Positions 2,076-22,207 of a stretch of DNA of 22,207 nucleotides are shown piece after piece. A model generated the notes under the pieces. That model was given only the letters and a program-made list of their open reading frames with translations. It had not been told where the DNA came from and made no database searches. Numbering within the stretch: the first letter of the stretch is position 1; every line of letters begins with the position of its first letter. The stretch is from a virus. Position numbers and translations under genes: made by a program. The stretch spans positions 1 to 22,207 of IMG/VR virus record IMGVR_UViG_3300033153_012118; one strand, written 5' to 3'.

Positions 2076-2086
2076 AAGGGTAAAGA

Positions 2087-3019: not shown

Positions 3020-3020
3020 T

Positions 3021-3689
3021 ATGAAAATCTTAGTTTCGGGGAACACAAAAGGCAATCTTTGTTTGCTTAACAAGTATATAAAAGAAGAGCATGTCGATTT
3101 TGCGGTTTGTTCTGGTGATTTTGGAATCTCTCTTCGAAACACAAAAACAAATAGTGATTTTTATAAATTTCTTGAGGGAAGAGAGAAATTTGTTAAGCCC
3201 GTTATTACTATTAGAGGGGCAAACGACAACTTGTATTTATATAGGCAACTTTGTAAGAAAAGTATTCAAGTTGATAATTTAACTGTTCTTAGAAACGGAG
3301 AAGTATATACGCAGGGTAGTATTAAAATAGGGGGGATAGGGGGAACATATAGCCCTAAGTGTTATTCAAAAGAGAAGTTAGTTGGGGGAGAGAAAAGACA
3401 TTTTACCAAAAAAGAAACAAGTTATTTATATAATTCTGGTTTAGATATTTTGTTGATGCATGATTTTATGGGAGGGTGCTCTAAAAGAAGAGTAAAATAT
3501 TCTGAAGAAACTTTAGGGTTTATTGAGAAAATAATGCCATATTATTGTGTTGTTGGTAAATATGATTGGTGGGGTGCTTCTAAAATGATTGGGTATAATA
3601 TAGTTGTTATGCCTTCTCTCGAAAAGGGATATTTAATTATTGACAGTAATAACGAGTGGAATTCTAAGGGAGTGAGATTTGATTTGTAA
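3021..3689 (+). CDS. Lariat-debranching-enzyme-like metallophosphoesterase with degenerate metal site
   Basis: The 222-residue protein follows the order of conserved blocks in Dbr1-type calcineurin-like phosphoesterases: SGNTKGN (6-12, block 1), CSGDFGISLRN (30-40, block 2), PVITIRGANDN (60-70, block 3), IKIGGIGGTY (101-110), ILLMHDF (143-149, block 4) and VVGKYDWW (177-184, block 5). Against the family, block 1 has N8 and K10 in place of the Asp/Cys and His, block 3 reads GAND rather than GNHE, and block 5 reads GKYD rather than GHxH. Only D33 and H147 appear retained. It may bind nucleic acid or nucleotide without hydrolysing it, or use an altered metal site. It starts one base after the preceding stop, in the same operon. 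Confidence 0.68.
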   Translation: MKILVSGNTKGNLCLLNKYIKEEHVDFAVCSGDFGISLRNTKTNSDFYKFLEGREKFVKPVITIRGANDNLYLYRQLCKKSIQVDNLTVLRNGEVYTQGSIKIGGIGGTYSPKCYSKEKLVGGEKRHFTKKETSYLYNSGLDILLMHDFMGGCSKRRVKYSEETLGFIEKIMPYYCVVGKYDWWGASKMIGYNIVVMPSLEKGYLIIDSNNEWNSKGVRFDL

Positions 3690-3900
3690 AAAATGTGGAA
3701 GAGGATTAAGACATGCTCCAGCAATAATGGAATATGTTAAAAATGGACCTATGTCTGGAATGACTGGTTCGAGTTGGGTTTGTCCTGTTTGTGGAGATGC
3801 TTTTGAGGGAGACACTTTTCCTGTGCCAGGGCAAGATATGATGTGTGGTGGAAGTCCACCATACCCATATTGTGAGTGTAGCGATGGAGAAAATGAATGA
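3679..3900 (+). CDS. Small zinc-ribbon protein, TTG start
   Basis: A 73-residue protein with two Cys pairs, C3/C6 (CKKCG) and C35/C38 (CPVCG), typical of a rubredoxin-like or zinc-ribbon fold. Further cysteines follow at C56, C65 and C67. I chose the TTG at 3679 because it keeps the first CxxC pair and has the SD-like AAGGGAG about 5 bases upstream. The alternative ATG at 3727 would delete that pair. It overlaps the upstream gene by 11 bases and the reductase gene downstream by 4 (ATGA), so it may be coupled to reductase synthesis. It could be a reductase accessory or nucleic-acid-binding protein; no function can be named. Confidence 0.66.
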   Translation: MICKKCGRGLRHAPAIMEYVKNGPMSGMTGSSWVCPVCGDAFEGDTFPVPGQDMMCGGSPPYPYCECSDGENE

Positions 3901-6017
3901 ACAATAAAGATTTAACACCAAACGCTTTAGTTGCATTAAACAGAAGATATTTTATAAAAGATAAAAAAGGGAAAGTAGTAGAAGATTGGAAGAAGCTTTG
4001 CAAAAGGGTTTCGTCAGCAATAGCTCAAGATGAAAAATCAGATATAGACAGGGGACGTTGGCAACAAAAATATTACGATATTATTAACAATCTTTATTTC
4101 TTACCCAATAGTCCAACACTTATGAATGCAGGTAAAAAGAATGGACAGTTGGCTGCTTGTTTTGTTTTGGGAATAGAAGATAGCATGAAGAGTATTATGA
4201 AAGCCACTACTGATGCGGCGTTTATACATAAAAGTGGGGGTGGAACTGGTTTTGATTTTTCTAGGCTTAGGCCGTCTAAAAGTAGAGTAGCTACTACTTC
4301 TGGGACTGCTTCTGGTCCTATTTCTTTTATGAGAATGATAAACAATGTGACGGAAGAGATAAAGCAGGGAGGTACTCGTAGGGGCGCAAACATGGGAATT
4401 TTAAGATGCGACCACCCGAATATATTGGAGTTTATTGACTGTAAACAAGATACTTCTCAGATTAATAATTTTAATATTTCTGTTGCTTTAACAGACAAGT
4501 TTATGAAAGCACTTTCTTTGGGTGAAGATTACTCGTTAATTGACCCAAGAGACGGAAAAGAAATAGAAAAAATTAGTGCTAAGAAAGTATTCGAGAAAAT
4601 AGCAGAGAATGCATGGAAAACAGGGGAGCCTGGGATTATTTTTATTGACGAGATAAACAAAAAGAATCAATGGGGAGAAATAAGAGCAACTAATCCCTGT
4701 GGAGAACAACCCTTACGTGATAATGAGTCTTGTAATTTGGGCAGTATGAATCTTTCATTATATGTCAATAAAGACGGGGTTTTTGATAAAGACCTTTTTG
4801 ACGAACATATTAAAATAGCTACTAGGTTTTTAGATTCTGTAATTTCAATGAATAGTTACCCATTAGAAGAGATAAAAAAGACACACGCAGAGACAAGAAA
4901 AATTGGTCTTGGTGTTATGGGGTTTGCTGATGCTCTTATTCTTAGTGAAATAGAATATGGAAGTGTAGAGTCTTTTCAGTTTGCTAATTATGTGTATTCT
5001 TGGCTGAATGATGCAAGTAAACAAGCGAGTGAAGAACTTGGGAAAGAAAAGGGGATTTGTTTTGCTTGTGAAGAGTTAAAGCTAAAAAGAAGGAATCTTT
5101 GGACTACAACTATTGCCCCAACTGGGACAATAAGTATTATAGCTGGATGTTCTTCTGGTATTGAGCCATTATTTGCAGTAGGGTATGAAAGAAATATTTT
5201 AGACGGAGATAAGCTTTTAGAAATAAATAAACATTTTTTAAGTGAGGTTTGTGGGGGTGAAGACCTAGAAAGAGAAATATGTTCTTCTAACTCTATTCAA
5301 AACATAAAAGGTATTCCAGCAAAAATCAGAAAGAAATATGTTACTTCTCATGATGTTTCTCTAGAGAATCACATAAAAATGCAGTCAGTTTTTCAAAAGC
5401 ATTCTGACAGTGGAATATCTAAAACGATTAATCTTTCTAGTGATGCTAAAAAAGAAGATGTAATAAAAGCTTATTTATTAGCTTATAAACTGGAATGTAA
5501 GGGGATTACTGTATATAGAGATGGGTGCAGGGATAATCAACCCATGAGAGTAAAAAAAGAAGAAGTTGTTAGAAAGACTTTTAATCGTATTTCTGTAATG
5601 AAGGGTTCTACTGAAAAAATTGAAACACCTTTGGGTGGTTTATTATTGACTATTAATGAGAATGTTCATGGAGAACCTGGTGAAGTAATACTCAACATAG
5701 GAAAGTCTGGTGCTGATGTGAATGCTTTTTGTGAAGCATTGGGAAGGATTATTTCTATAGGGCTACAACATGGACTACCAGCACATAAAATAGCTAAACA
5801 ACTTAGACGAATAAAGGGTGAAGATATTATTTTCCATGACGGGAAAAAATATACATCACTACCCGACATAATTGGTAAAAGATTGGCAGAAAAAGCTAAG
5901 GAAAAGTCTAAAGATAATAATGAGAGATTGTTAGCGAAATGTCCTTCTTGTGGGGAGAGATTGTTTAATGCAGAAGGATGTTCACAATGTACGTCATGTG
6001 GGTATTCGAAATGTTAA
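3897..6017 (+). CDS. nrdJ: Adenosylcobalamin-dependent (class II) ribonucleoside reductase
   Basis: Reduces ribonucleotides to deoxyribonucleotides for phage DNA synthesis using a radical derived from coenzyme B12, so it needs no separate radical subunit but depends on host cobalamin. The 706 residues show the class II landmarks: PNSPTLMNAG (70-79), redox Cys C88 (AACF), the active-site loop NPCGEQ with C268 and E270, and the second redox Cys C279 (ESCNLGSMNLS). The spacing C268-E270-C279 matches known class II enzymes. APTGTISIIAGCSSGIEP is the phosphate-binding region. A TSCPD domain (about 565-670) and a C-terminal zinc ribbon (682-706), which normally shuttles reducing equivalents, complete it. 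It starts at an ATG with GGAG upstream and overlaps the preceding gene by ATGA. Confidence 0.95.
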   Translation: MNNKDLTPNALVALNRRYFIKDKKGKVVEDWKKLCKRVSSAIAQDEKSDIDRGRWQQKYYDIINNLYFLPNSPTLMNAGKKNGQLAACFVLGIEDSMKSIMKATTDAAFIHKSGGGTGFDFSRLRPSKSRVATTSGTASGPISFMRMINNVTEEIKQGGTRRGANMGILRCDHPNILEFIDCKQDTSQINNFNISVALTDKFMKALSLGEDYSLIDPRDGKEIEKISAKKVFEKIAENAWKTGEPGIIFIDEINKKNQWGEIRATNPCGEQPLRDNESCNLGSMNLSLYVNKDGVFDKDLFDEHIKIATRFLDSVISMNSYPLEEIKKTHAETRKIGLGVMGFADALILSEIEYGSVESFQFANYVYSWLNDASKQASEELGKEKGICFACEELKLKRRNLWTTTIAPTGTISIIAGCSSGIEPLFAVGYERNILDGDKLLEINKHFLSEVCGGEDLEREICSSNSIQNIKGIPAKIRKKYVTSHDVSLENHIKMQSVFQKHSDSGISKTINLSSDAKKEDVIKAYLLAYKLECKGITVYRDGCRDNQPMRVKKEEVVRKTFNRISVMKGSTEKIETPLGGLLLTINENVHGEPGEVILNIGKSGADVNAFCEALGRIISIGLQHGLPAHKIAKQLRRIKGEDIIFHDGKKYTSLPDIIGKRLAEKAKEKSKDNNERLLAKCPSCGERLFNAEGCSQCTSCGYSKC

Positions 6018-8677: not shown

Positions 8678-9032
8678 AGGTTCGAATGGTAAATACTGTA
8701 AACCTAATAAGGCGCCAAAACCAAACTATTTTAAAAAGAAAAAAATTAATAATCCAAAGAATCTCAAACTCTGTGTTAAACAAGCCCCAAAGTGTCAATT
8801 TTGTAATTCTAAACGGGGTTTATCAGCCCATCACATAATTTTTCGCTCAGAGGGTAGAGATGATTCTTTAGAGAATTTAATATCTTTATGTTTTGATTGT
8901 CACAGAAAAGCACATGATGGGTATTATATAAAAGAGATATATATTACAGCAAGGAATTTCGTTATATTTGAATTAGAGCGTTTAAACGATAAAAAGTATG
9001 AACAAACAATATTGGAGCTTAGAAAAAAATGA
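8670..9032 (+). CDS. HNH endonuclease (free-standing)
   Basis: The 120-residue protein has a basic, disordered-looking N-terminus (1-40, Lys and Pro rich) followed by a complete HNH finger. Zinc Cys pair C42/C45 (CQFC) is followed by the catalytic-type His in SAHHIIFRS (H54/H55), N69 in DSLENLISLC, the second Cys pair C74/C77 and HRKAH (78-82). It would nick or cut DNA with a divalent metal. Such genes are common in phages as homing endonucleases or packaging cofactors. Here it sits between nucleotide metabolism and the clamp gene, away from the terminase. I chose the ATG at 8670 with AAAAGG upstream over a TTG at 8649. Confidence 0.85.
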   Translation: MHEGSNGKYCKPNKAPKPNYFKKKKINNPKNLKLCVKQAPKCQFCNSKRGLSAHHIIFRSEGRDDSLENLISLCFDCHRKAHDGYYIKEIYITARNFVIFELERLNDKKYEQTILELRKK

Positions 9033-10126
9033 AGATTTCAACAACAGTAAATGAAGTAAAAAAAGCACTACAAAAACTAACACCAATTATTAACTATAAT
9101 CATTCGACTTTAGCTTATAGATATTTACTCATTAGGAAAAGAGAAGACCGGATAGAGTTTAAAGCTTTTGATGATTATACAGTTGGTTCGTCTTTTGTTG
9201 CGTGTAGTAACATAGAAGGTGAAGAAGAAAATTCTTATGTTTTAGCTAAACATTTTGTAGGGCTTATTGGGAGCTTTGGCTCTAAAGATATTACTTTAGA
9301 AATCAATCAAGAGGGCTGTAAAATTAAGTCTGGGAAATCTAAATATAAGCTTTTAGTGTTAGACAAAGAAATTGCCGAAGAATCACTTAAAGAGCTTGAT
9401 ATTAATTATTATGATTTTGATGAAGATGACACAAAAATAAAAATAAGTAATTTTGCTATTAGTTATATCTCCATTCAACATTGTTTGTCAAAAGACAATA
9501 CACAAATTAATTTACAGAATGTTTTTCTTAAAGACAACAGAATGATAGCTTGTGATGGGGTCAGGGGTGCGTTTGTTGAGTTTGATACAACGAATTTGAA
9601 TGAAGTTATGTTACATAAAAAAGTATGTGATTGTATAATAAACGTTAAAGAGTCTAATGAAATCTGTTTAACAAGAGGTGATAATAGAATTTTTGGGAGA
9701 ACGGACAATTTTATTTTTGTTTCTTCTGTGGGTGATGAGTATCCATATGCACAATTAGAAGATATTATAGTTGGGTTTGATGAAAATTCGCTACCCATAC
9801 AGATTCAAGTAGACACAGAAGATATATCAGAAAAACTTAATCGTGTGTTAATGTTCGCTGATAGCGATACAAATTCTGTTTTGGTTTCTTTTGATGAGAA
9901 AAAACTAATATTGAGCGTAGAGAACACAAATAGCGCAGAAGAAGTCATTGAGGTTTTTAATAACATTAATAAAAATGATATGTCTTTATATATAGATGGT
10001 AAGATTTTAAGAGAGTTTATGAACAAATCTCTTTCTGAAGCTAAATGGCTCGCTTCTGACGAAGAGAGTGTTCAGTATGTTTATGATGGAAATTTATTAC
10101 AATTTTTCTTGGGATTAGATGGATAA
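9029..10126 (+). CDS. dnaN: DNA polymerase III beta-type sliding clamp
   Basis: The 365-residue protein matches the length and three-domain layout of bacterial beta clamps, which form a dimeric ring that tethers the replicative polymerase to DNA. The first domain is recognisable (VNEVKKALQKLTPII, then YRYLLIRKREDRIEFKAFDD and the strand-rich KSGKSKYKLLVLD). The later domains repeat the clamp pattern, for example VFLKDNRMIACDGVRGAFVEF and VLVSFDEKKLILSVEN. The usual C-terminal MPMR-like end is absent; it ends FFLGLDG. It overlaps the upstream HNH stop by 4 bases and shares one base with the sigma-like gene (TAATG). A bacterial-type clamp is less usual in phages than a T4 gp45-like one, though not unknown. 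Confidence 0.84.
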   Translation: MKISTTVNEVKKALQKLTPIINYNHSTLAYRYLLIRKREDRIEFKAFDDYTVGSSFVACSNIEGEEENSYVLAKHFVGLIGSFGSKDITLEINQEGCKIKSGKSKYKLLVLDKEIAEESLKELDINYYDFDEDDTKIKISNFAISYISIQHCLSKDNTQINLQNVFLKDNRMIACDGVRGAFVEFDTTNLNEVMLHKKVCDCIINVKESNEICLTRGDNRIFGRTDNFIFVSSVGDEYPYAQLEDIIVGFDENSLPIQIQVDTEDISEKLNRVLMFADSDTNSVLVSFDEKKLILSVENTNSAEEVIEVFNNINKNDMSLYIDGKILREFMNKSLSEAKWLASDEESVQYVYDGNLLQFFLGLDG

Positions 10127-10638
10127 TGATAATATTTAATTACAACAGGGTTTTGAAAGACTATGAACCTTTGATAATGTCTTATGCTAATAGGATTAAC
10201 AAAGACATTGAAGATATGGCACAAGAAATTAGAATCTATGTTTTTGAGAACTTGTCAAGGTTTGACCCGAACAAAGCTTCGTTAAGTTGGTATATTCCGA
10301 TGATTATTAAGACATCGTATAGGAAGCTTGTTTTTCAGAAAAAGAACCAACAGATATTTGAAGAAGAGTTTTTTGAAATCAGAGATGAAGTGGTCTGTGT
10401 AGAAGAAGAAGATAGTTATGATATAACTCTTTTTAAAATTTTAGAGAAGCTTCATAAAGTAACTGGTGTAAATAGATATTCTCTTATATCTGTTTTTTGG
10501 GCACTAGTATATAACAATGATGATAAGAATTATTCACAACTTTCAGAAAAAATGAAAGCAGAATATACTTCATTTTTAAAATATACAGACATTATTAAAA
10601 AAGTTACAAGAGAAGTAATAGAAGAGAGACAAGAATAA
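10126..10638 (+). CDS. Sigma-70 region 2-like transcription factor (candidate late sigma factor)
   Basis: The 170-residue protein has an N-terminal half that reads as sigma region 2. It runs from a helix around YEPLIMSYANRI (13-24), through DIEDMAQEIRIYVFENL (27-43, the core-RNA-polymerase-binding part), to RFDPNKASLSWYIPMII (45-61) and a basic helix (to about 73) where -10 recognition would lie. The C-terminal half is helical with no convincing region 4. The size and single clear region recall small phage late sigma factors. It starts in a TAATG overlap with the clamp gene and stands just before the terminator that separates the early operon from the virion module. Driving the repeated late promoter motif is an attractive inference, not shown. 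Confidence 0.72.
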   Translation: MIIFNYNRVLKDYEPLIMSYANRINKDIEDMAQEIRIYVFENLSRFDPNKASLSWYIPMIIKTSYRKLVFQKKNQQIFEEEFFEIRDEVVCVEEEDSYDITLFKILEKLHKVTGVNRYSLISVFWALVYNNDDKNYSQLSEKMKAEYTSFLKYTDIIKKVTREVIEERQE

Positions 10639-10884: not shown

Positions 10885-10915
10885 GGGCTTATTTTTCGAA
10901 ATAAGCCCTTTTTTT
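10885..10915 (+). terminator. Intrinsic terminator closing the early operon
   Basis: A perfect 10-bp stem (GGGCTTATTT with AAATAAGCCC) closes a TTCG tetraloop and is followed directly by seven T residues. This is a textbook rho-independent terminator, placed after the last non-virion gene and five bases before the first late promoter motif. It insulates the virion module from upstream transcription. Confidence 0.93.
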
Positions 10916-10920
10916 GGATA

Positions 10921-10960
10921 AAATTCAAGTATATGCAAGTAAAATCCGTATTTTATAGTA
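10921..10960 (+). promoter_or_regulatory. Late promoter motif, copy 1 (terminase operon)
   Basis: Carries AAATTCAAGT (10921-10930), ten variable bases, then AAAATCCGTA (10941-10950) followed by TTTTATA. The same two blocks with the same spacing occur at 15361 and 21737. CCGTATTT in the second block, about 15 bases after the first block, loosely resembles a sigma-28-type -10 with its -35. If that reading is right, transcription starts near 10960 and the leader to the GTG at 10977 is very short, containing only AAGAAGGG as ribosome binding site. Confidence 0.75.
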
Positions 10961-10976
10961 AAAAGAAGGGTATTTT

Positions 10977-11855
10977 GTGAATGCAATAATGATGACAGAT
11001 GAAGATAGGGATAAGTGGTATCCCGTATTAGCTGACTACTATCGTCAAAAGGGAGAAGCTGAGGATAGAATACCAGATATTGTAAATACTGTTCTTGCTG
11101 AAGCTCAAGCTGGATGGAAAAGGGCTCCTCGTGATTTAGACACTAGGATTAAGATGAAAAGCGGGTATCAGTGGAAATCTCATGCTAATTTAAAACCTAA
11201 GAAAAAAGAAGAAATAGAAGAAAATATCAAATCAAACAAAGAAGAAGATATTTCATTTGAGATAACATCTTCGATGACTAAAAAAGAAAGGGATTGGTTT
11301 GAATTAAGACTTAAAGACTATGTTACTGATTTTGATTTTAATAATAGTTCTGATAAGCCTCTTCTTGAACAACTTCTTGTTGAAGAGTTGATTCAAAGAA
11401 GGCTTTTTGGTTTACAGTTGAAATATATAGATAGGGATTATAGTAAAAAAATGTCGGAAAGTCTTAAGAGGGTTAGCGATATCCAAACAAAGTTAGGTAT
11501 TACCAGAGAACAAAGAGCAGGTGCTTTAGACAATATTGATGGTAATGTTGCTCAGATTTCTGTTGACTTAAACGAGAAACTGAAGAAAATGCCAGAAAAA
11601 ATCAGACGAGAAGAAGAAGAAGAGTTATACTATTCTAATCTTAAAAAGCAAAGACCCATTGTTAATATTCTACCTGCTCCAGAAAAATTAGAAGCCATGT
11701 TAAGAATAGATGGCAAAACCACTGCAAATCTTGACAGTGAACATATTTCGATTATAACTGAACAAGTTGCAAAAGAGATAACAGAAGTTAACGAATCTAA
11801 CAAAGAAAAGCCACCACTTAAAGAACTAGCTGAAGGAATTGATGTTTCTAGATGA
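10977..11855 (+). CDS. Putative small terminase subunit (gene directly upstream of terL)
   Basis: The 292-residue, highly charged, mainly helical protein is called small terminase mainly from position, directly before the large terminase with a 4-base ATGA overlap, as first gene of the late operon. It contains a region (about 12-70) that could be a helix-turn-helix DNA-binding part, a Lys/Glu linker (about 73-92), a central helical region (about 100-200) and a long C-terminal part. It is large for a small terminase. I chose the GTG at 10977 (AAGAAGGG seven bases upstream); ATGs at 10989 and 10992 are alternatives. It could instead be another packaging accessory protein. Confidence 0.5.
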   Translation: MNAIMMTDEDRDKWYPVLADYYRQKGEAEDRIPDIVNTVLAEAQAGWKRAPRDLDTRIKMKSGYQWKSHANLKPKKKEEIEENIKSNKEEDISFEITSSMTKKERDWFELRLKDYVTDFDFNNSSDKPLLEQLLVEELIQRRLFGLQLKYIDRDYSKKMSESLKRVSDIQTKLGITREQRAGALDNIDGNVAQISVDLNEKLKKMPEKIRREEEEELYYSNLKKQRPIVNILPAPEKLEAMLRIDGKTTANLDSEHISIITEQVAKEITEVNESNKEKPPLKELAEGIDVSR

Positions 11856-13426
11856 AAAGACAACAAGCAAGATTATCAAAGAGTGATTTATTTAAACTAA
11901 ATTGCTCAGAAAAATTTATTTTATTTTGTAGGAACAATCCAGCAGAAGCCGCTAAACATCTAATGAATATTGATTTAATGTGGTTTCAAAGAATTATTCT
12001 TCGGTCTCTTTGGGACAAGAAGTATAATCTATTATTATTGGGAAGAGGAATCGGTAAAACTTGGCTTCTTGCTTTATTTGCTTGTCTTTATGCTATGCTT
12101 CATCCCAAAGTTAAAATCGGGGTTATTACTCCGTCGTTTAAGCAAACAGAATTTTTATTTGACAAAATCGCAGAATTTTTTGAAGATTCCCCTTTCTTAA
12201 GAGCGTCTACTGGGAAACTTCAGAGAACTACTTTTAGAGCTATTGTGAGATTCCATAATGGTTCTTTTATTGAGGGTCTTCCTCTTGGTACAGGAGACAA
12301 AATAAGAGGTCGTCGATATAACCTTATATTAATTGATGAATATGCATTTGTTGATGAGGATATTATTAAAAAAGTAGTTAACCCAATGATGAATGTGAAA
12401 ATTCCTGGTATTGAAAATAAACAAGTTATTTCTTCTACTGCATATTATCCATGGAATCATTATTATTTACAATATTTATTTTACAATATTATGTCTGAGA
12501 ATAAGCCAGAGCTTTATGGTTTGCATGAGTATATAAAAGAAGACGTAGACTCAGTTCCAAATGCTCCGTTTTTGTTAGATGAAGATGTATACGAAATGAT
12601 GAAAAGCACAACAACAGCAGAGATATATAATATGGAGAACAAATGCCAATTTCCTATTGAAAATGTGGGATTCTTTTCTGCTAGATTAATTGATGCTTGT
12701 ACCCCAAGAGAAAAAGAGGGTCAAGATTCTTGTCCGATAGAAGTAGAGGGTATTAGTAACAGTAGTTATTCTATGGGTATTGATGCCGCTAGAGTAGCGG
12801 GGGGAGACAATTTTTCGATTAGTATTGAGAAACTAGAGGCTGGAGTAAAGAAATTTGTTCATGGATTTACGCTTAACGGTGCTCCGTATCAAGAAATGAT
12901 ATATCATATAAGAAGATTGACGCAAGAATTTAATATTATTCAGATTAATATGGATGCGGGTGGTGGTGGTACGACTCTTAAAGACCTGCTTATGCAACCC
13001 TACAAGACAATTGAGGGGACAGTTCTTCCAGCAATATTAGATATGGATGATAAAGATATGGAATATAGAGAGGGTCAGCATATTTTAAGAATGATTAATT
13101 TTACAAGAACAGTTGTTAATGATTTGTATATGAGGTTAAAAGCCGATATGCAACATCGAACGCTTCAGTTTCCTCTTGATATTAGAAGACATTCAGATAG
13201 AGAGTTAGAAAAAATAGCTAAAGAAATAATAGAAACTAAACGAGAACTTTTAGTATTGCAAGCAGAAGGAAAAGGGAATTACTATACTTTTGATGTGCCA
13301 AGTCAATTTAAAAAAGATAGAGCTACATCACTAGCATTAGCTACTCAGGCGGCTAATGATTTCTTGTCTATGTACAAAGAAGAAAGTGTTCCTGAGCTTG
13401 CTACTGGATTTTGGATGGACAGATGA
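11852..13426 (+). CDS. terL: Terminase large subunit (packaging ATPase/nuclease)
   Basis: The DNA-packaging motor: it docks on the portal, hydrolyses ATP to pump DNA into the prohead, and cuts the genome. The 524 residues show the ATPase domain with Walker A GRGIGKT (64-70) and Walker B LILIDEYAF with D162-E163. The RNase H-like nuclease domain has D311 (MGIDAAR), D368 (NMDAGGGG) and D489 (KKDRATSLALA) as the metal-binding acid set. All key residues are present, so it should be active. Motifs and length resemble the T4 gp17/Terminase_6 class. It overlaps its upstream neighbour and the portal gene by 4 bases each. Confidence 0.96.
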   Translation: MKRQQARLSKSDLFKLNCSEKFILFCRNNPAEAAKHLMNIDLMWFQRIILRSLWDKKYNLLLLGRGIGKTWLLALFACLYAMLHPKVKIGVITPSFKQTEFLFDKIAEFFEDSPFLRASTGKLQRTTFRAIVRFHNGSFIEGLPLGTGDKIRGRRYNLILIDEYAFVDEDIIKKVVNPMMNVKIPGIENKQVISSTAYYPWNHYYLQYLFYNIMSENKPELYGLHEYIKEDVDSVPNAPFLLDEDVYEMMKSTTTAEIYNMENKCQFPIENVGFFSARLIDACTPREKEGQDSCPIEVEGISNSSYSMGIDAARVAGGDNFSISIEKLEAGVKKFVHGFTLNGAPYQEMIYHIRRLTQEFNIIQINMDAGGGGTTLKDLLMQPYKTIEGTVLPAILDMDDKDMEYREGQHILRMINFTRTVVNDLYMRLKADMQHRTLQFPLDIRRHSDRELEKIAKEIIETKRELLVLQAEGKGNYYTFDVPSQFKKDRATSLALATQAANDFLSMYKEESVPELATGFWMDR

Positions 13427-14967
13427 AAGAAATAAAAGTTGACGAAGCTACTATAGTAGCTGACCAAGATTTTGAAGCAGAAAAAAGAGAAGAACTTGCT
13501 ATTGGATTAAAAATTCCAACTTCTATGAAAACACCAGTTGGGTATTTAGATGGATTAAATAAATTCAAAGATATCTATAATGATATTTATCAACAAATGG
13601 AAGTCAGTTCTAAGCTTTATAAGTTTAATAGTATTGTCGGAAATGCTGTTGATGTTTTAATTGATTTTGCTGTAACACCCCTTAGAGTTCAACCAACGGG
13701 AAATAAGCAATTTGATAAAGTATTAAAGCATTTTTTAGACAATGTGAACAATTCTAATACAAGTACTTTGCCTGGTATATATCCCCTTTGCCAAGAAGTA
13801 GCGTTAGAATGGTTCACTTCTGGGAATGTTTTTCCTTATACTAAGTGGGAAAATGTTAAAGTTGGAAATACGACATATAAGCTTCCAATGTCTATTAATT
13901 TAATTAATCCACAATCTATTGATATACCAAGTGGTCCTATAGCTTTTGGTCAAGAAATAATATATTTAAAATATGATAGTGAATTGATGACCCAGTTGAC
14001 ACAAGATGGGAGAAGCAATCCTGAAGCCGCATTAATTAAAGCGGCTATACCACGAAGTATTCTCAATAGTTTAAAAAAGAATCCAGGTTCTTCTCAGGGA
14101 GCACGACTTAACCCAAAATATGTTACTCATTTGAAAAGAAGGTCTAAAAGCTATCAACCTTGGGGAACTCCGTATCTGTCAAGATGTTTTGATTCTGTTA
14201 CTCTTCTTGAAAGGATAAGACAACTTGATAATTCTATTGCGGCAGGGTTAATTAATTTAATTACTGTTTTTAAGATAGGGACTGAAGAACATCCAGCTTC
14301 CCCACATAGACTTAAGAAATTTGCCGCACTTTTACGAAATCCCAAAGCTACTCAGACTTTAGTTTGGGCGCATGATGTTGACCTTATTCAAGTTGGTCCA
14401 GATGGTAAAGTTTTAGCTTGGAAAGATAAGTACAAAGACGCAAAAGAAGATGTTTTAATTGCATTGGGTATTCCCCCAGTTTTAACTTCACTTAATCAAT
14501 CAGGAGATGAATGGGTTTCTATTCTTTCTCTTATTGAAAGACTATCTCATTGGAGAAAAACTGTGTCTATTTGGCTTGAAAAAGTTTGTGAAGATATAGG
14601 AAGACACAATGAGTTTAAGCAAGAAGTAAAAATAAAATGGGAAAGAATGAATCTTGCTGATGAACAGTCTATAAAGAACTTAGTCTTATCTTTTTATGAC
14701 AGGGGTTTAATTTCTATTAAGACTGCTCTTAGGGAATCTAATTATGATATAGAGCAAGAACATAACGCTAAGAAAGAAGAGAAAGAAATTCAAGAAGATT
14801 TTCTACCTCCCAATCTTCCTTTTAGTGGGAGTAACACAGAAGTAGACAAATCAAGACCAAAAGAAGATAGCACAAAAGAAAAAACAAAAAAAGACACGAA
14901 ATCTGAAAATACAGTTGATTTAAAAGAACAAAAGAAGAAAAAAACACCCAAACCTACTAAGAAATAA
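13423..14967 (+). CDS. Portal protein
   Basis: Forms the dodecameric ring at the unique capsid vertex through which DNA enters and leaves and on which TerL docks. The 514-residue protein follows terL and has portal-like sequence in its middle: YLDGLNKFKDIYNDIYQQM, FTSGNVFPYTKW, INPQSIDIPSG, the SYQPWGTPYLSRCFDSVTLL crown/stem segment and ALGIPPVLTSLNQSGDEW. The C-terminal 60 residues are Lys/Glu/Ser rich and look disordered. I chose the ATG at 13423, which overlaps the terL stop (ATGA), over an in-frame TTG at 13411. The assignment rests on context plus general portal features. Confidence 0.88.
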   Translation: MKEIKVDEATIVADQDFEAEKREELAIGLKIPTSMKTPVGYLDGLNKFKDIYNDIYQQMEVSSKLYKFNSIVGNAVDVLIDFAVTPLRVQPTGNKQFDKVLKHFLDNVNNSNTSTLPGIYPLCQEVALEWFTSGNVFPYTKWENVKVGNTTYKLPMSINLINPQSIDIPSGPIAFGQEIIYLKYDSELMTQLTQDGRSNPEAALIKAAIPRSILNSLKKNPGSSQGARLNPKYVTHLKRRSKSYQPWGTPYLSRCFDSVTLLERIRQLDNSIAAGLINLITVFKIGTEEHPASPHRLKKFAALLRNPKATQTLVWAHDVDLIQVGPDGKVLAWKDKYKDAKEDVLIALGIPPVLTSLNQSGDEWVSILSLIERLSHWRKTVSIWLEKVCEDIGRHNEFKQEVKIKWERMNLADEQSIKNLVLSFYDRGLISIKTALRESNYDIEQEHNAKKEEKEIQEDFLPPNLPFSGSNTEVDKSRPKEDSTKEKTKKDTKSENTVDLKEQKKKKTPKPTKK

Positions 14968-14978
14968 AGGGGATAAAA

Positions 14979-15332
14979 ATGCCGACAGACATCTTGACTC
15001 AACCAAATACTTCAATTCTTGTTATTATTTTAGTTGTTTTAGTTCTAAGAGAGATTATTCCACTTTTTAAGAAATCAAAATTAGAAGAGATACAAGAGCA
15101 ACATAATTTAGAAACAGAGAAAATTAACAGTAAAGCTAATTTGTTGCTTAGAGATGTAGGGGCATTATACGACATGCACAATGTTAAAGACCAAGATGGA
15201 ACTTATATTTGGTATGTTAGAAGCTCTTTAGAGGAAGCCATTTCTAAATTAACAGAGTCTATAATTACTCAAAATATAATTTTCAGAGAATTAGTGACAA
15301 GATTAGAGATAAAGGGCGAAAAAGATAAATAA
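14979..15332 (+). CDS. Single-pass membrane protein with cytoplasmic helical domain
   Basis: The 117-residue protein has a hydrophobic segment at about 13-30 (SILVIILVVLVLREIIPLF) with positive residues just after it. A charged coiled-coil region follows (31-55), then a domain containing ALYDMHNVKDQDGTYIWYV (62-80). An N-out/C-in anchor is expected. It follows the portal gene, with AAAGGGGAT as SD, and is the last gene before the second late promoter. It could be a holin-like or membrane-tethering protein, but the position next to head genes gives no firm clue. Confidence 0.65.
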   Translation: MPTDILTQPNTSILVIILVVLVLREIIPLFKKSKLEEIQEQHNLETEKINSKANLLLRDVGALYDMHNVKDQDGTYIWYVRSSLEEAISKLTESIITQNIIFRELVTRLEIKGEKDK

Positions 15333-15360
15333 TCTGTTCACTGATAGTGGTTTAAAAAGT

Positions 15361-15400
15361 AAATTCAAGTATATGCGATTAAAATCCGTATATTATTATA
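15361..15400 (+). promoter_or_regulatory. Late promoter motif, copy 2 (head operon)
   Basis: AAATTCAAGT (15361-15370), ten bases, AAAATCCGTA (15381-15390), then TATTATTATA. The first 31 bases differ from copy 1 at only two positions, although the surrounding sequence is unrelated. It lies in a 96-base gap between the membrane protein and the first head gene. The SD TAGGAGAA and ATG (15429) follow about 30 bases downstream. No terminator is seen before it, so it probably boosts head-gene transcription on top of read-through. Confidence 0.75.
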
Positions 15401-15428
15401 TATCAAAGATATATGTAGGAGAATCCTT

Positions 15429-15812
15429 ATGAACAAAAGATTAGAGAGCTTTATTCCAAATAGTAAGACCGACCCTACTCTTGCTCCTGTATCACTAGAT
15501 ACCACTGCTACAACAGTTACCTATTATGACGATATGGTGGTAACTAACGAACATGCTCAAGATGGGTTGCTATATGTAGAAACCTTGGGATATAATACTG
15601 CTACTGCTGGATTTACCCCGAAAGTTTATAGCTCTTTTAATGGGTATCAATGGTTTCTGAACACATCTTTGCCTGTTACTGATACAGGTGGGTCGATAGC
15701 ATATCCATTAGATAATTTGGGTAAATATATAAAATTTGGCTATACAGCAGAAGTTAAAAGAAATATTTCTAAAGTTAGGGTGATGTTAGAACTAAATGAA
15801 ACTTACGACTAG
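15429..15812 (+). CDS. Small beta-rich probable virion protein
   Basis: Not recognised by name. The 127-residue protein is rich in Thr, Val and Tyr with strand-like alternation (TTVTYYDDMVVTNEHAQ; VRVMLELNETY at the end), suggesting a beta-sandwich such as a head decoration or fibre domain. It is the first gene behind the second late promoter, with the SD TAGGAG, and directly precedes the protease/scaffold gene. This argues for an abundant structural or assembly role. No catalytic motif is visible. Confidence 0.65.
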   Translation: MNKRLESFIPNSKTDPTLAPVSLDTTATTVTYYDDMVVTNEHAQDGLLYVETLGYNTATAGFTPKVYSSFNGYQWFLNTSLPVTDTGGSIAYPLDNLGKYIKFGYTAEVKRNISKVRVMLELNETYD

Positions 15813-15821
15813 GGAACAGAT

Positions 15822-17678
15822 ATGAAAAAAGACCTAACTGCTAATGCTGGAGACACTTATCATAATAGGTATTCTTCAGATTCCCCCTATAAGGGTAATA
15901 AAAAATATAAAAAGAAACCTCAAAAGTGTTCTAAGTGTGGTACGACAAAGGGTCCTTTTGACCTTCATCATACTAACAATAGTAGAAAAGACTTAAAATC
16001 TGGAAAAGGTATTTCAGTTATGTGCAGAAGTTGCCACAGAAAATACCACGCTAAACTAAACGGGGGTAAGGGGTCTGAAGAAATTATTTCTGCTGTAGCA
16101 AGAATAATTGATGACCCAAAAACAAATGAATCAAAAGCTATTGCTAGTGACCATAAAAATTCTGATTTAATGCATGTAGAATTTATTTTATGTCATGCTA
16201 CTGTAAATGATAATAAAGATAGATTTACGTCAGACGACTTAAAAGAATCTGCTCACACAGCGACTAATAAACCTATTAATTGGGAACATAAAGACCAAAA
16301 TATAGGCGTTATTTATGAGAGTAAATTTGTTTCTACAGATAAATTAGAAGACGAAGCTAAAGCATATTATGAAAATATTGACCCATTAGAGTATGATTTT
16401 GTTGTTTGTCGTGCTTGTGTATGGGAATATAAATATCCAATGGAATCTCGTATCATGAGAGATAGAGCTTCTAATGGTAATTTATTCTTTTCAATGGAAA
16501 ACAACTTTGATAAAGCTACTTGTTCTGAATGTAATGAAACCTTTGATAGTTTCTATGAATATTGTGACCATTTATTGTCGAGAAGGCAGACCGACAATGT
16601 ATCCAGAATATTTGGGGATAGCAATTTTGTAGGAGCGGCTGTTACAAGAAATCCAGCTGATGAACTAGCGGGAACACTTGCTCTTGCTTCTTTGAGAAAA
16701 AATCATAGTGTTTTTGCTGATGTTTGTCAATCGACAGCTTTATCGAGTGTTTCTATAAAGAATGAAATAATCCCTTATATTATTTCTAGAGAGGCTGATA
16801 TGAAAATTAGGGAATTAGATATCCCCGAAGAACTTAGAAGCGGTCTTGAAAAAGATTTATCTAATGAGCTTTTTGCGGATGATGTTAATAAAGTTTTCCC
16901 ATTAGATAACGCTGAGAATGTTTCGGTTGCAGCCGAATCGTTCCTTAACAGTGAGCTTAATTTTTATGAATCATCGGAAAAACTTTATATTGTTGAAAGG
17001 ATTGCTAAAGCAGCCAATGAATATGATATTGAAATAAATACATTGATTAAAGATATAGAAGGAGGTACTGAATCAATGACTATTGACAAAAATTCTCCTG
17101 AATTTAAACAGGCATTAGCCGAGGCACTAGATGTCGAGCTAAAAGGTATTGAGTCAGGAACTAAACTTGCTGAATCTCAAGAAGAGTTAGCTAAGGCTAA
17201 TGAAATTACTGATAAAACTAAAAAAGAATTAGACGAGTCTAATAAAGCTAAAGCTGATATTCAGACTGAATATGAGGCTTACAAAACAGAAGTTGAAAAG
17301 AAAGAACTTGCTGAAGCTCGCTATTCTACTTTGGTTGAAAAAGAACTCGAATTTGAAAATTCTGATTCCGTTAAGAGTCGTATTGCTGAAATGGATGAAG
17401 ATGCTTTTGCCGCTTATGTTGCTGACTTAGAAACTGTTGCCGCTAAAGCTAAATTCAATTTCGAGAAGAAGAAGAAAGACGAAGAAGAAGACGAAGAAGA
17501 AGACGACGACAAAAAGAAGAAAAAAGACAAAAAGAAAGACGAAGCTAAGGCCAATAAAGAAGACCCCGTTAAAGAGTCTAATGAAACCGCAATAGCTTCT
17601 AAAGTTGATGACGGCACTTCTGACCAGAAATCAAAGTTTCCTGGTTTTGATGCAGTCTTAAATGCGCTTGATAATTAG
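15822..17678 (+). CDS. HNH finger / prohead protease / scaffold fusion protein
   Basis: The 618-residue protein lies between portal and capsid genes, the usual place for maturation protease and scaffold. Residues 1-80 hold an HNH-like zinc finger (C36, C39, H49-H50, C68, C71, H72, H76). Residues about 115-290 resemble a head-maturation serine protease: MHVEFILCHATVNDN, then H156 in NWEHKDQNIGVI and S224 in LFFSMEN, spaced like the His/Ser pair of U35-type proteases. A zinc-knuckle-like patch follows (C234, C237, C248, H250). From about 420 to the end lies a charged coiled-coil scaffold with a Lys/Glu/Asp block (549-574) and a hydrophobic C-terminal helix. An internal ribosome binding site probably makes the scaffold separately. 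The protease assignment is partly contextual. Confidence 0.78.
   Translation: MKKDLTANAGDTYHNRYSSDSPYKGNKKYKKKPQKCSKCGTTKGPFDLHHTNNSRKDLKSGKGISVMCRSCHRKYHAKLNGGKGSEEIISAVARIIDDPKTNESKAIASDHKNSDLMHVEFILCHATVNDNKDRFTSDDLKESAHTATNKPINWEHKDQNIGVIYESKFVSTDKLEDEAKAYYENIDPLEYDFVVCRACVWEYKYPMESRIMRDRASNGNLFFSMENNFDKATCSECNETFDSFYEYCDHLLSRRQTDNVSRIFGDSNFVGAAVTRNPADELAGTLALASLRKNHSVFADVCQSTALSSVSIKNEIIPYIISREADMKIRELDIPEELRSGLEKDLSNELFADDVNKVFPLDNAENVSVAAESFLNSELNFYESSEKLYIVERIAKAANEYDIEINTLIKDIEGGTESMTIDKNSPEFKQALAEALDVELKGIESGTKLAESQEELAKANEITDKTKKELDESNKAKADIQTEYEAYKTEVEKKELAEARYSTLVEKELEFENSDSVKSRIAEMDEDAFAAYVADLETVAAKAKFNFEKKKKDEEEDEEEDDDKKKKKDKKKDEAKANKEDPVKESNETAIASKVDDGTSDQKSKFPGFDAVLNALDN
17059..17066 (+). 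promoter_or_regulatory. Internal Shine-Dalgarno site inside the protease gene
   Basis: AAGGAGGT, an eight-base match to the anti-SD, lies inside the coding sequence nine bases before an in-frame ATG (17076). It is as strong as the sites used by real starts in this window, for example those at 7025, 10649 and 18349. Confidence 0.7.
17076..17678 (+). CDS. Nested scaffold protein from an internal start
   Basis: An in-frame ATG at codon 419 of the fusion gene begins MTIDKNSPEFKQALAEALD and would give a 200-residue protein made only of the scaffold part: a long charged coiled coil, the Lys/Glu/Asp-rich block and the C-terminal helix (KFPGFDAVLNALDN). The upstream AAGGAGGT at nine-base spacing makes independent translation likely. 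Lambda does this with the protease gene C and the nested scaffold Nu3. Scaffold is needed in large excess over protease, which a nested start would supply. The start is inferred from sequence alone. Confidence 0.66.
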   Translation: MTIDKNSPEFKQALAEALDVELKGIESGTKLAESQEELAKANEITDKTKKELDESNKAKADIQTEYEAYKTEVEKKELAEARYSTLVEKELEFENSDSVKSRIAEMDEDAFAAYVADLETVAAKAKFNFEKKKKDEEEDEEEDDDKKKKKDKKKDEAKANKEDPVKESNETAIASKVDDGTSDQKSKFPGFDAVLNALDN

Positions 17679-17690
17679 GAGGAATATCCA

Positions 17691-18323
17691 ATGTTAGAGG
17701 TTCTTATTCCGGGTGTTCGTCATGGTGAAGCTAAAATAGATACATCAGCGGCTTATCGCGGATGTTGGTGTTATATTTCTGGTATTGATGCTGATAACTA
17801 TCATACTTTAAATGTTCCTACAACTACCGCTACCGCCATGAGGTCTGTATTCCCGATTAATAAATATAGGTTTGAAGAGGATTTGAGTGATTCAGCCGAT
17901 GCTGTAGATAAACTCGCTAAAGGCGATATGGTTGTATATTATGATGGTGGTGAATATCTCACTGATAAATGGGACCATAGTTCTTTCAATATTAATTCAA
18001 CAAGTTGGGCGGCTTCTGAGGGCGATTTGTCAACTGTTTATGGCAGAAAAATAGCAGTTCCTGGTAGTTCTACTGCCGGTGGGCAAGTTGCGCTTTGGAA
18101 ATGCTATGTTAGTACTGGTGTTGGTAGAGGTGGACCAGGATGGCTTTGTGGTGATATTGATGTTGGTTCTGCTTCTGCTGGTTTACGCCTTACAAATGGG
18201 TTTGTTGGCGTAGCTGTTGGATTATATTACACAGATAGTTCCGATGCTAAACTGAGAGTTAGAGTAGAGCCAGGTCAGGGTTTATTTGGTTCTAGGTCTT
18301 CGATTGGTGGAAACGTTGGTTAA
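17691..18323 (+). CDS. Probable head decoration/capsid-associated protein
   Basis: The 210-residue Gly/Ser/Thr/Asp-rich, strand-forming protein sits between scaffold and major capsid genes, where phages often place the decoration or stabilising protein. It starts MLEVLIPGVRHGEAKID and has GKIAVPG-like beta segments and a Gly-rich C-terminal third (GLFGSRSSIGGNVG). The TAGGAGGA site gives strong initiation. Codon choice (GGT, GCT, CGT/CGC) is closer to the major capsid gene than to the early genes, suggesting high expression. I do not recognise the family, so the role comes from position and composition. Confidence 0.6.
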   Translation: MLEVLIPGVRHGEAKIDTSAAYRGCWCYISGIDADNYHTLNVPTTTATAMRSVFPINKYRFEEDLSDSADAVDKLAKGDMVVYYDGGEYLTDKWDHSSFNINSTSWAASEGDLSTVYGRKIAVPGSSTAGGQVALWKCYVSTGVGRGGPGWLCGDIDVGSASAGLRLTNGFVGVAVGLYYTDSSDAKLRVRVEPGQGLFGSRSSIGGNVG

Positions 18324-18348
18324 ATTATAAATAATTAGGAGGTTCTTT

Positions 18349-19245
18349 GTGAACACTAAAGAAATGTGGCAAGCGTTTGCTGACGAGATGAAAGCAGCCG
18401 TTAGTAATCCCGAAGATAGGCATGCGATTGCAGACAAAATTGTAAAATATATTAGTGATAGCATTGAACAGCGTGATGTTTCTTCTCTCCTTTTACCGAA
18501 AGAAGTGATACCTGTCGGTACTTCGGCAGAGTATGCTGTTCCTACTAAACTAAAAGCCTATTGGCACGAGCCAGGCTCATATGCTCCCCGTACCTCAATG
18601 GTTCAGAAGATTTTCACCGTTCCCACGTGGATGGTGTCTGCTCATCCTGAATATGAAATTTCTCAGCTAGAAGCGGGTAGATATGGGACAGTTCAAGACC
18701 AAGTTAAGGCGGCTAGAGATGCTATCTTGGGTGCTATTAATGCACGAGTTTTTAATACTGTTTCTGGTTCTATTTCGTCTGGTGATGCTAACTATTTTTC
18801 TTCAGTAGGTAGTTTTACTAGAGCGTCTTTAGAACAAGCAATTAACTATGTTGAAGACCAATATGGGACTGTTAAAGCTATTGTTGGTCGTCGAAATTTG
18901 CTTTATCCTATGATTGAGTGGAACACTAATGCAACTTATGGCGACATGGGTTTGTTTGGTGACTCGACTAAAGAGAAGCTCATCAATACAACTAAAATGC
19001 CTACTTATCGTGGTATTCCAATTGTTGGTCTTCCTCAATGGAGGGATGGTTTTGGTAAACTAACTATTCCGCAAGATACTGTTCTTGTTATTGGCGAAGA
19101 TATGGGTCGCTATGTTGTGAGTCAAGACCTTCGCTCTAAAGACACTATTGATGTTGATACATTAATGTGGCATATCCATCTCTATATGAGAGTTGGTGCC
19201 GCAGTATTTTTCCCAGAGAGGGCCGCAAAGATTGTTGTAGGTTAA
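18349..19245 (+). CDS. Major capsid protein (HK97-fold type)
   Basis: The 298-residue protein forms the head shell. It follows the protease, scaffold and decoration genes and has HK97-like organisation: an N-terminal helix, the LLPKEVIPVGTSAEYAVPTK region, YEISQLEAGRYGTVQDQVK (a spine-helix candidate), an A-domain with YGTVKAIVGRRNLLYPMIEW, then KMPTYRGIPIVGLPQW and a C-terminal MRVGAAVFFPERAAKIVVG strand pattern. The first 40 or so residues look like a short delta domain. It starts at GTG with TAGGAGG upstream. It uses CGT/CGC arginine codons more than other genes here, a sign of strong expression. The exact fold is inferred. Confidence 0.88.
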   Translation: MNTKEMWQAFADEMKAAVSNPEDRHAIADKIVKYISDSIEQRDVSSLLLPKEVIPVGTSAEYAVPTKLKAYWHEPGSYAPRTSMVQKIFTVPTWMVSAHPEYEISQLEAGRYGTVQDQVKAARDAILGAINARVFNTVSGSISSGDANYFSSVGSFTRASLEQAINYVEDQYGTVKAIVGRRNLLYPMIEWNTNATYGDMGLFGDSTKEKLINTTKMPTYRGIPIVGLPQWRDGFGKLTIPQDTVLVIGEDMGRYVVSQDLRSKDTIDVDTLMWHIHLYMRVGAAVFFPERAAKIVVG

Positions 19246-19254
19246 TTATAAATT

Positions 19255-19272
19255 AGGGGGCTATTGCCCCCT
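19255..19272 (+). other. GC-rich hairpin after the major capsid gene
   Basis: A perfect 7-bp stem AGGGGGC/GCCCCCT with loop TATT lies ten bases after the capsid stop. No T-run follows, so it is a poor terminator. It more likely protects the 3' end of the capsid message or attenuates read-through into the next gene. Confidence 0.55.
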
Positions 19273-19290
19273 CAGACAAAAGGATGTATA

Positions 19291-19839
19291 ATGTCTAAGA
19301 AAATCGTAAAAAGAGAAATTAAAGATGACAAAAAAGCTAAAATTATTCAAGACCAACATGGAGAAGACCATCTTCTAGTTATTGAAGAGAAAACATTTTA
19401 TACTTTTACTAACTTAAGAAGAGGGCCAATGTTTTTTACTAGAGAAGATGGCAAAGAAGATATGATGAAGGGAAAAGAAACAAGAAACGATATTACTGAA
19501 AGAGAACGAGTCATTCTTTTAAAATCAAAAGATTATGAAAATGGTTGGATTGTTGAAGAAAAAGAAAAAATAGAATCTGAAAAAGAAATTTTAAATAAAA
19601 ATGCTATTAATGAAGAGAATCTATTAATATTATCTAAAAAATATAAAGGCAATTGGAAGAAATTCGAAAAGCTAATTGACGATATGGACAGTGAGTTTGC
19701 TGTTTCAAGATTAAGAGAGTTTTTCATTGAAAATGATTTACCTAGCTCCTTAGTTGTTTATTGTGACTATAGACTTCAGCAAATAAATGAAGCTTATCAA
19801 GAATCACAAAGAGCTCCGATAGACAAAGAAGAAGAATAA
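19291..19839 (+). CDS. Hypothetical protein directly downstream of the capsid gene
   Basis: Not recognised. The 182-residue, highly charged protein has a strand-rich first half (HLLVIEEKTFYTFTNL, then TERERVILLKSKDYENGWIV) and a helical second half (ENLLILSKKYKGNWKKFEKL, then FAVSRLREFFIENDLP). I chose the ATG at 19291 with AAAGGAT upstream; an in-frame ATG-less extension from 19264 would begin inside the hairpin. The position after the capsid gene suggests a head-completion, neck or tail-assembly part, without motif support. Confidence 0.68.
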   Translation: MSKKIVKREIKDDKKAKIIQDQHGEDHLLVIEEKTFYTFTNLRRGPMFFTREDGKEDMMKGKETRNDITERERVILLKSKDYENGWIVEEKEKIESEKEILNKNAINEENLLILSKKYKGNWKKFEKLIDDMDSEFAVSRLREFFIENDLPSSLVVYCDYRLQQINEAYQESQRAPIDKEEE

Positions 19840-21218: not shown

Positions 21219-22001
21219 ATGCCTTTATTCGATAGTAGAACAAAAGGTGTAAATTTTCGTGATTCTAGAATTCATGGGTTAGGAGAGCCTGGAACAGAAT
21301 TCTTTAATTCGAAAATTAACCTGTCTTATTCTGCAATTTCTAGTTTTTCCTCTAAAATCAGCCTATCATATGTTTCTGGTTCTAACTCTTCTTCTAAGAT
21401 AAACTTATCTTATTCTTCTTCTAGTGAGCATTCTTCTAAAATTAGCCTATCTTATATATCAACTGTTAATTCTTCTTCTAAAATTAGCCTGTCTTATGTT
21501 TCTGGTTCTGAGAATTCTTTTAAAATTAGCTTATCTTATGCCTCAATTTCTATCTATTCTTCTAAGATTGGTTTGTCTTATGTCTCAGGTTTTAATTCTT
21601 CTTCAAAGATTAATTTATCGTATTTTGCTCAAAATAGTTTATCTGAAAAAATAAATATATCTTATACTTCCGAAATTTCTTTATCTAATAAGATTAATAG
21701 TTCTTTTGTCGGTCAAAATAGCATAAGTTCAATTATAAATTCAAGTTATACTTGTGAAAATCCGTATTATTATACAATAGGGATATCTTTTTCAGCAATA
21801 CAAACAACTTCGTCAAGTAAGATTTCTCTTAGTTATAATACTTCAGGCGGATTGTCAAACAGTAGTATTGGACTGTCTTTCTTTGTTGAAAGAGTAGGTG
21901 GGAAAATAAAAAATTATAATTCTCATTTAGGAATATATAAACATGAAGATGACAAGAAAATTAAGAGAAAAGATAAAAATCCAGCAATGCCTCCGAGGTA
22001 A
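21219..22001 (+). CDS. Serine-rich 14-residue-repeat protein (putative fibre or surface protein)
   Basis: The 260-residue protein has a short N-terminal head (1-28, DSRTKGVNFRDSRIHG). It is followed by 14 tandem 14-residue units (29-225) of consensus SSKIxLSYxSxxxS, with one single-residue insertion after unit 12, and a basic tail ending KNPAMPPR. Ile/Leu/Tyr alternate with Ser, so each unit could be one or two strands of a beta-solenoid or fibre. Units 11-12 are the most diverged. The ATG at 21219 is the only usable start after an upstream stop, and no SD precedes it. The dense Ser content makes it a possible acceptor for the glycosyltransferases upstream, a guess. Confidence 0.7.
   Translation: MPLFDSRTKGVNFRDSRIHGLGEPGTEFFNSKINLSYSAISSFSSKISLSYVSGSNSSSKINLSYSSSSEHSSKISLSYISTVNSSSKISLSYVSGSENSFKISLSYASISIYSSKIGLSYVSGFNSSSKINLSYFAQNSLSEKINISYTSEISLSNKINSSFVGQNSISSIINSSYTCENPYYYTIGISFSAIQTTSSSKISLSYNTSGGLSNSSIGLSFFVERVGGKIKNYNSHLGIYKHEDDKKIKRKDKNPAMPPR
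21303..21893 (+). repeat. 42-bp-period tandem coding repeats
   Basis: Fourteen units with a period of 42 bases encode the 14-residue protein repeats, conserved chiefly at TCTAAAAT-(A/T)-A(G/A)CCT-(G/A)TCTTAT-like positions. The first eight units are similar at the DNA level; later ones are diverged. Such an array can gain or lose units by slippage or recombination. Confidence 0.8.
21737..21776 (+). promoter_or_regulatory. Late promoter motif, copy 3 (inside the repeat-protein gene)
   Basis: AAATTCAAGT (21737-21746), ten bases, AAAATCCGTA (21757-21766), then TTATTATACA, with exactly the same spacing as copies 1 and 2. It lies inside coding repeats 11-12, where the encoded residues break the repeat pattern, about 235 bases before the next gene start. 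It would drive the downstream structural gene(s). Confidence 0.6.
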
Positions 22002-22004
22002 ACA

Positions 22005-22207
22005 ATGGCTTTAACGATAACTATTGCGACTCTTTAATTAACGATACTGGTGGTTCTGGGGTGGATGATTGGAAAGAGGATGGTGGTGGGTCGATTGACG
22101 ACGAAGCTGATGCTTTTCTTTATGGGACTACTTCGATTGGTAATCAGTATGCTTCTAAAAGTGGGTGGACATATTTTGAGTTAGGAACTCCTTTAGATTT
22201 TGATGTA
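22005..22207 (+). CDS. Start of a structural protein gene, reading frame broken near its start, truncated by the window end
   Basis: An ATG at 22005 begins MALTITIATL and meets TAA at 22035. From there the long open frame to the window end is shifted by minus one base and reads DNYCDSLINDTGGSG, VDDWKEDGGGSIDDEADAF and YASKSGWTYFELGTPLDF. Gly/Asp/Ser-rich, strand-like sequence of this kind is usual for phage structural proteins. The only start codon in that frame after its last stop (21974) is GTG at 22061, without a good SD. So either the gene starts at 22061, a one-base indel separates MALT from DNYCDS, or frameshifting occurs. No canonical slippery heptamer is seen. Confidence 0.5.

Follow-up and report, generated by a model that had tools for sequence, protein, structure and literature searches.

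Phage-encoded sigma factors of the ECF type that work with low-copy, conserved late promoters are already known. In phiEco32, the ECF-type sigma gp36 drives a few well-conserved middle and late promoters before virion operons, each a single motif, tAATGTATAtA, 6–8 nt before the start, and phage SU10 offers a further case (PMC4281155). In Salmonella phage 7-11, low-copy, highly conserved late motifs with a core TGATGT plus TATA, and with no separate -35 block reported, were found by pairwise comparison of intergenic regions (PMC4331800). The locus analysed here resembles phiEco32 in having a phage-encoded ECF-like sigma gene and a few conserved candidate late promoters that the sigma would recognise, and resembles 7-11 in that its motif was likewise found by pairwise likeness. 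However, its motif is in two parts with CCGTAT, sites 1 and 2 do not match the gp36-type motif tAATGTATAtA, and 7-11 belongs to a different phage group.

Two further systems bear on the comparison. In T4 late transcription (gp55/gp33/gp45), a small phage sigma and the phage sliding clamp control the virion genes; T4 late promoters carry only TATAAATA, and gp55 has no region 4. Our locus likewise combines a small phage sigma, a phage sliding clamp and virion genes, but its motif is bipartite with a -35 block and its sigma is modelled with a region 4. Membership of the T4-type clamp-coupled class was rejected on the bipartite motif and the absence of a clamp-binding motif at the sigma C-terminus. 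The Bacillus sigma-W promoter is TGAAAC-N16-CGTATA, and CGTATA/CGTC is a known -10 type of ECF sigmas. Our sites share with sigma-W promoters a CGTATA-type -10 and about 22–23 bases from -35 to -10, whereas the -35 of the locus, TTCAAGT, lacks the AAC found in most ECF promoters; AAC was present only in the G001 head and G003 terS sites of the relatives described below.

The window is the whole stretch of DNA that was analysed, 22,207 nucleotides from a 22-kb record of an uncultured phage. On one strand it runs from glycosyltransferases, a B12-dependent ribonucleotide reductase and nucleotide genes through the sliding clamp, the sigma factor and a small ORF to an intrinsic terminator, site 1, the terminase and portal genes, site 2 and the head genes (Table 1). 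Between the sigma gene and site 1 are 0.3 kb that include the terminator; the sigma transcript ends there, and site 1 follows directly. The large ORF of the head operon, which is kept in all relatives reaching that region, begins with a zinc-finger/HNH-like stretch (KCSKCGTTKGPFDLHH...CRSCHRKYH) also found in L004 and L005; an HNH-like domain fused to a head-maturation protein would be odd.

Table 1. Features of the window around the candidate late promoters; assignments of promoters and transcription starts are predictions.
Feature	Coordinates	Strand	Details
DNA polymerase sliding clamp	9029–10126	+	phrog_947 E 2e-27; TIGR00663; shares operon with sigma gene
ECF-like sigma factor, 170 aa	10126–10638	+	phrog_1740 E 4.6e-8; Pfam Sigma70_r2; presumed recognition factor
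Intrinsic terminator	10885–10915	+	10-pair stem 10885–10908 plus T run; fold z -3.35
Putative promoter site 1 (terminase operon)	10921–10951	+	-35 part AAATTCAAGT 10921–10930; -10 part CCGTAT 10946–10951; predicted start near 10958
Terminase/portal operon	10977–14967	+	putative small terminase 10977–11855 (position, synteny)
Large terminase	11852–13426	+	terminase/portal operon
Portal	13411–14967	+	terminase/portal operon
Putative promoter site 2 (head operon)	15361–15391	+	-35 part 15361–15370; CCGTAT 15386–15391; predicted start near 15398
Head operon	15429–19839	+	15429 ORF, 15822–17678, 17691 ORF, major head protein, 19264 ORF
Large ORF, protease/scaffold position	15822–17678	+	head operon
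Major head protein	18349–19245	+	head operon
Site 3	21737–21767	+	exact match in 3' part of ORF 21219–22001; candidate internal promoter for genes beyond 22001

The original prediction held that a motif, AAATTCAAGT-N10-AAAATCCGTA, recurs upstream of two virion operons. Both copies were recovered with 0 mismatches, at 10921–10950 and 15361–15390, and both are intergenic, ahead of the small terminase gene (10977) and the head operon (15429). The first 31 bases of the two sites differ, as had been stated, at two positions, both within the spacer, and the flanks are unrelated. The two copies listed are indeed on the plus strand, but a third exact copy on that strand, at 21737–21766, had been overlooked. 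Dinucleotide shuffles gave 0.01 expected matches with up to three mismatches allowed, against the three exact matches found. The reversed-pattern control had zero matches in the window, the minus strand of the window carried no motif sites, and the runner-up match in the window had 5 mismatches out of 19. Across the whole window, no 31-mers separated by over 100 bases, other than the copies at 10921 and 15361, matched with two or fewer mismatches; such a pair occurred in none of 60 shuffled windows. The exact motif was not found in 2.9 million other viral contigs. A relaxed 17-base motif matched only 12 of those stretches, at one site each; all were unrelated, none had a window-related protein, and we regard them as chance matches.

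The protein encoded directly after the clamp was classified as an ECF-like sigma factor with a region 2 and a probable region 4. Region 2 was detected with Pfam PF04542 (28.9 bits against a cutoff of 24), and TIGR02937 (sigma70-ECF) matched with 27 bits (E 2.9e-6), under its curated cutoff of 42.9 bits; the G001 orthologue (L005) covers positions 5–157 of the 165 in TIGR02937. A structure model built from five sigma orthologues had a pLDDT of 77, an earlier AlphaFold model from 3 sequences (pLDDT 64) having been too poor. The top matches in a structure search with this model were all sigma factors, mostly ECF (SigK, RpoE, sigma-H, SigW), with weak E-values. Because of these E-values and the TIGR02937 score below the curated cutoff, we call the protein ECF-like only. 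Many sigma structures align, in their region 2, with residues 1–72 of the model (rmsd 2.2–3 Å). No HMM matched region 4 in the window protein; in the corresponding area, model residues 91–170 align to M. tuberculosis sigma-L 104–177 (Z 7.0). Regions 1.1 and 3 are absent, since region 2 ends near residue 72 of 170 and is followed by a low-confidence linker (residues 83–95) and then the next domain; the total length falls within the range of about 160–200 aa that goes with such an ECF build. Sequence searches gave little: tblastn of the sigma against phage records found no real homologue and no close sequence relative in the phage collection, its profile had no significant score against that of the Slash sigma, and a search of solved structures with the sigma alignment returned a spurious SNARE match only.

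It had been suggested that the second block faintly recalls sigma-28-class promoters. That resemblance fails: TAAAGTTT is missing and the -10 is CCGTAT, not GCCGATAA. The sigma-28 class, TAAAGTTT-N11-GCCGATAA, was rejected for want of such a -35 at the sites and because a 170-aa sigma is too short for region 3. An ECF-type assignment fits better. The distance from TTCAAG to CGTAT at the window sites is 23 bases, and the sites fit an ECF-type -10 (CGTA/CGTC type at ECF spacing), CCGTAT being invariant and replaced by CCGTCT in G003.

We compared the locus with its syntenic relatives, G001 (103 kb), G003 (111 kb), L012, L004, L024 and L027; a terminase search of genome contigs added no relative. 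The two ~100-kb genomes have their genes in the window's order (clamp, sigma, terS, terL, portal, head), the shorter contigs show part of it, and the virion proteins of the relatives compared for CCGTAT are only 58–70% identical to those of the window. G001 also keeps the junction of terminator and late promoter, with a terminator (L005 9021–9046) ahead of its own CCGTAT. In relatives, CCGTAT lies 26–43 nt ahead of terminase, head, tail and deformylase operons, and the -10 block has this distance to start codons in five genomes. The distances in G001, whose operon gene names were read from sequence by eye, are 29 nt for terS, 33 for the head operon, 36 for the tail operon and 29 for a small peptide deformylase-like operon. 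The expectation that sites in relatives would precede virion genes on the transcribed strand was thereby upheld in G001, whose four promoter-like CCGTAT sites are all intergenic and on the plus, virion strand, 29–36 nt before genes, with 0 ahead of early genes. In L012 and L004, CCGTAT stands 26–28 nt ahead of the head operon. G003 has CCGTCT 33 nt ahead of terS, and the terS equivalents of L027 and L024 have GCGTAT and AGTAT with a common AAATATAGTTT upstream. In this more distant clade (G003, L027 and L024) only the terS site was recognisable, and none of the further copies sought elsewhere in those records was convincing.

CCGTAT ranked first of 4096 hexamers in the upstream regions of the window, G001, L012 and L004 (7 observed against 0.18 expected, P = 1.2e-9, or about 5e-6 after correction for 4096 hexamers). 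In G001 alone, which is independent of the original finding, it occurred 4 times against 0.15 expected (P = 1.9e-5), second to CTTGAC only. When five sites, taken from two phages, were aligned without guidance, TTnAnnT and CCGTAT came out as the invariant blocks; a MAFFT alignment of four head-operon leaders misaligned the short ones and did not line up CCGTAT. No relative carries the complete -35 half, and the role given to it therefore depends on the three window sites and a weak TTnA match. Thus, going by the relatives' sites, the hexamer counts and the site alignment, different phages have the -10 half in common, and conservation of the -35 half is mostly confined to sites of a single phage.

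The hexamer count in G001 also yielded CTTGAC, TTGACA and GTCGAT, which are parts of TTGACA-N17/18-TATTAT-like promoters on the opposite strand, ahead of early genes. The early genes of both G001 and G003 have CTTGACA..TATTAT/TATATT promoters. A host-type early class together with a distinct virion class matches what a phage sigma switch predicts. The early arm of G001 (L006–L011, reverse-complement 1130–4318 and 11995–16960) also contains tandem small paralogous-looking ORFs of about 70–124 aa, starting MKI.L....

We therefore consider it highly probable that the motif is a tailed-phage late promoter read by host RNA polymerase together with the phage's own ECF-like sigma. The original proposal was a late promoter specific to the phage and recognised by a dedicated factor; the adjoining sigma gene and the -10 half kept before the virion operons of relatives support it. 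We infer binding of the sigma to the sites, the start positions and the timing as follows. Ordinary host promoters would serve the early and middle genes (nucleotide metabolism, clamp, sigma), whose transcription would end at the terminator and so be kept out of the virion genes until sigma is made. Accumulated sigma would then redirect host polymerase to site 1, site 2 and probably also site 3, switching on the terminase, head and following virion operons. At each site, TTCAAGT (within AAATTCAAGT) would be read by sigma region 4 and CCGTATW by region 2, with CCGTATW as the -10 element melting into an A/T-rich stretch and transcription starting about 7–10 nt after CCGTAT.

It is improbable that the sites are instead promoters for unmodified host holoenzyme, whether with sigma-70, sigma-28 or a host ECF sigma. 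The TTnA-N18-GTAT geometry is near ordinary -35/-10 spacing, CCGTAT and the sigma-28 -10 have CCG in common, and there are TATTAT-like hexamers in the A/T-rich stretch after CCGTAT. However, an invariant CCGTAT is not a sigma-70 feature, the relatives' early genes use canonical TTGACA/TATAAT-like promoters, and a sigma gene of the phage itself adjoins the late operon. Moreover, phages with the same -10 differ in their -35, which would be expected had each phage sigma diverged, and the sigma does diverge faster than the large terminase (27–42% identity among orthologues against about 60% for terL).

Replication-coupled late transcription, in which the ECF-like sigma would be activated at these promoters by the clamp encoded in its own operon, also seems unlikely. 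Directly after region 2, the sequence K-x-Q-x-x-F-E is invariant in all five orthologues despite their low overall identity. Clamp-binding motifs need a hydrophobic residue at a position where this sequence has Glu, and the sigma C-terminus is charged. Clamp coupling, if true, would mean an independent evolutionary origin of a T4-like arrangement, built here on an ECF-like sigma able to read a -35 element as well.

A site near a separate promoter that binds some other phage regulator, whether activating or repressing, is in our view very unlikely. Such a protein could explain two blocks that are set apart and well preserved in a single genome, and binding by the sigma is itself deduced. Against this, the blocks are neither inverted nor direct repeats, their spacing fits a promoter, the -10 block lies at the distance from start codons given above in five genomes, and in most cases a further promoter would not fit into the sequence downstream. 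If the motif were a structured RNA leader or translation-control element, a conserved block within 90 nt of start codons would be accounted for, but this reading is hardly credible, as an Rfam scan gave no match, a tRNA scan found nothing, and the folds of the three sites were unremarkable (z -1.2 to -1.8) and without common structure. Chance similarity or recent duplication of a short stretch can be dismissed as extremely unlikely: although the genome is AT-rich and three copies could descend from one by promoter-cassette transposition, the shuffled sequences did not reach what was found, the similarity ends at the motif, and diverged phages have the same -10 at orthologous positions.

Site 3 lies about 240 bases before the end of its ORF, which is repeat-rich; its translation there, TCENPYYY, is atypical. 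Given that a later boundary of virion operons in G001 (51739) also bears CCGTAT, site 3 may act as an internal promoter for the genes downstream of it. The same ORF has SKISLSY-type repeats and is followed by a start-less -1 open frame (KSSNASEVNNGFNDNYCDSL...) within 21219–22207; a GATAAAAAT run at about 21972–21980, near that frame, could mark a -1 frameshift or an assembly error.

Two distant cultured phages, Bacillus phage Slash and Microcystis phage MaeS (terminase 32–34% and head protein 23–24% identical to those of the window), likewise have an ECF-type sigma gene upstream of the terminase; Slash stands here for its group (Slashvirus). In Slash (L033/L034), an annotated ECF sigma (Slash_25) lies upstream of the terminase, with a terminator before terS. 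The MaeS sigma occupies the same genome position as that of the window and, at 44.7 bits, passes the ECF cutoff. Slash differs from the window in its motif, with GTATTAAT before late genes, and in its three annotated sigma factors (Slash_25 ECF, Slash_67 SigB-like and Slash_99). The left 44.6 kb of Slash contains seven copies of GTATTAAT on the plus strand and one on the minus strand; five copies are in the 6.3% that is intergenic, 40–60 nt before genes including terS and the gene after the terminase. Copies in Slash include those at 10222, 12268, 15429, 27241 and 42487. By eye, TTGAGA/TTGATA-like bases stand in register 24 bases upstream of GTATTAAT. Because Slash has two other sigma factors, the motif cannot be attributed to its ECF sigma and is support, not proof. 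In MaeS, CGTATTAC and TGTATTAA precede terS and the next operon but also occur elsewhere, and we do not claim a late motif there.

With its different motif, clear -35 block and place in an uncultured group of phages, the window pair is a new example of a known strategy, not a new type of system. For that group it amounts to a specific pairing of sigma and late promoter that can be checked. Across the series of the window, G001, G003, L027 and Slash, the -10 core stays CGTAT/GTAT and the -35 half appears to be rewritten as the sigma diverges; this series could help to work out how DNA is recognised by sigma regions 2 and 4, and the late operons of such phages may be callable from sequence alone.
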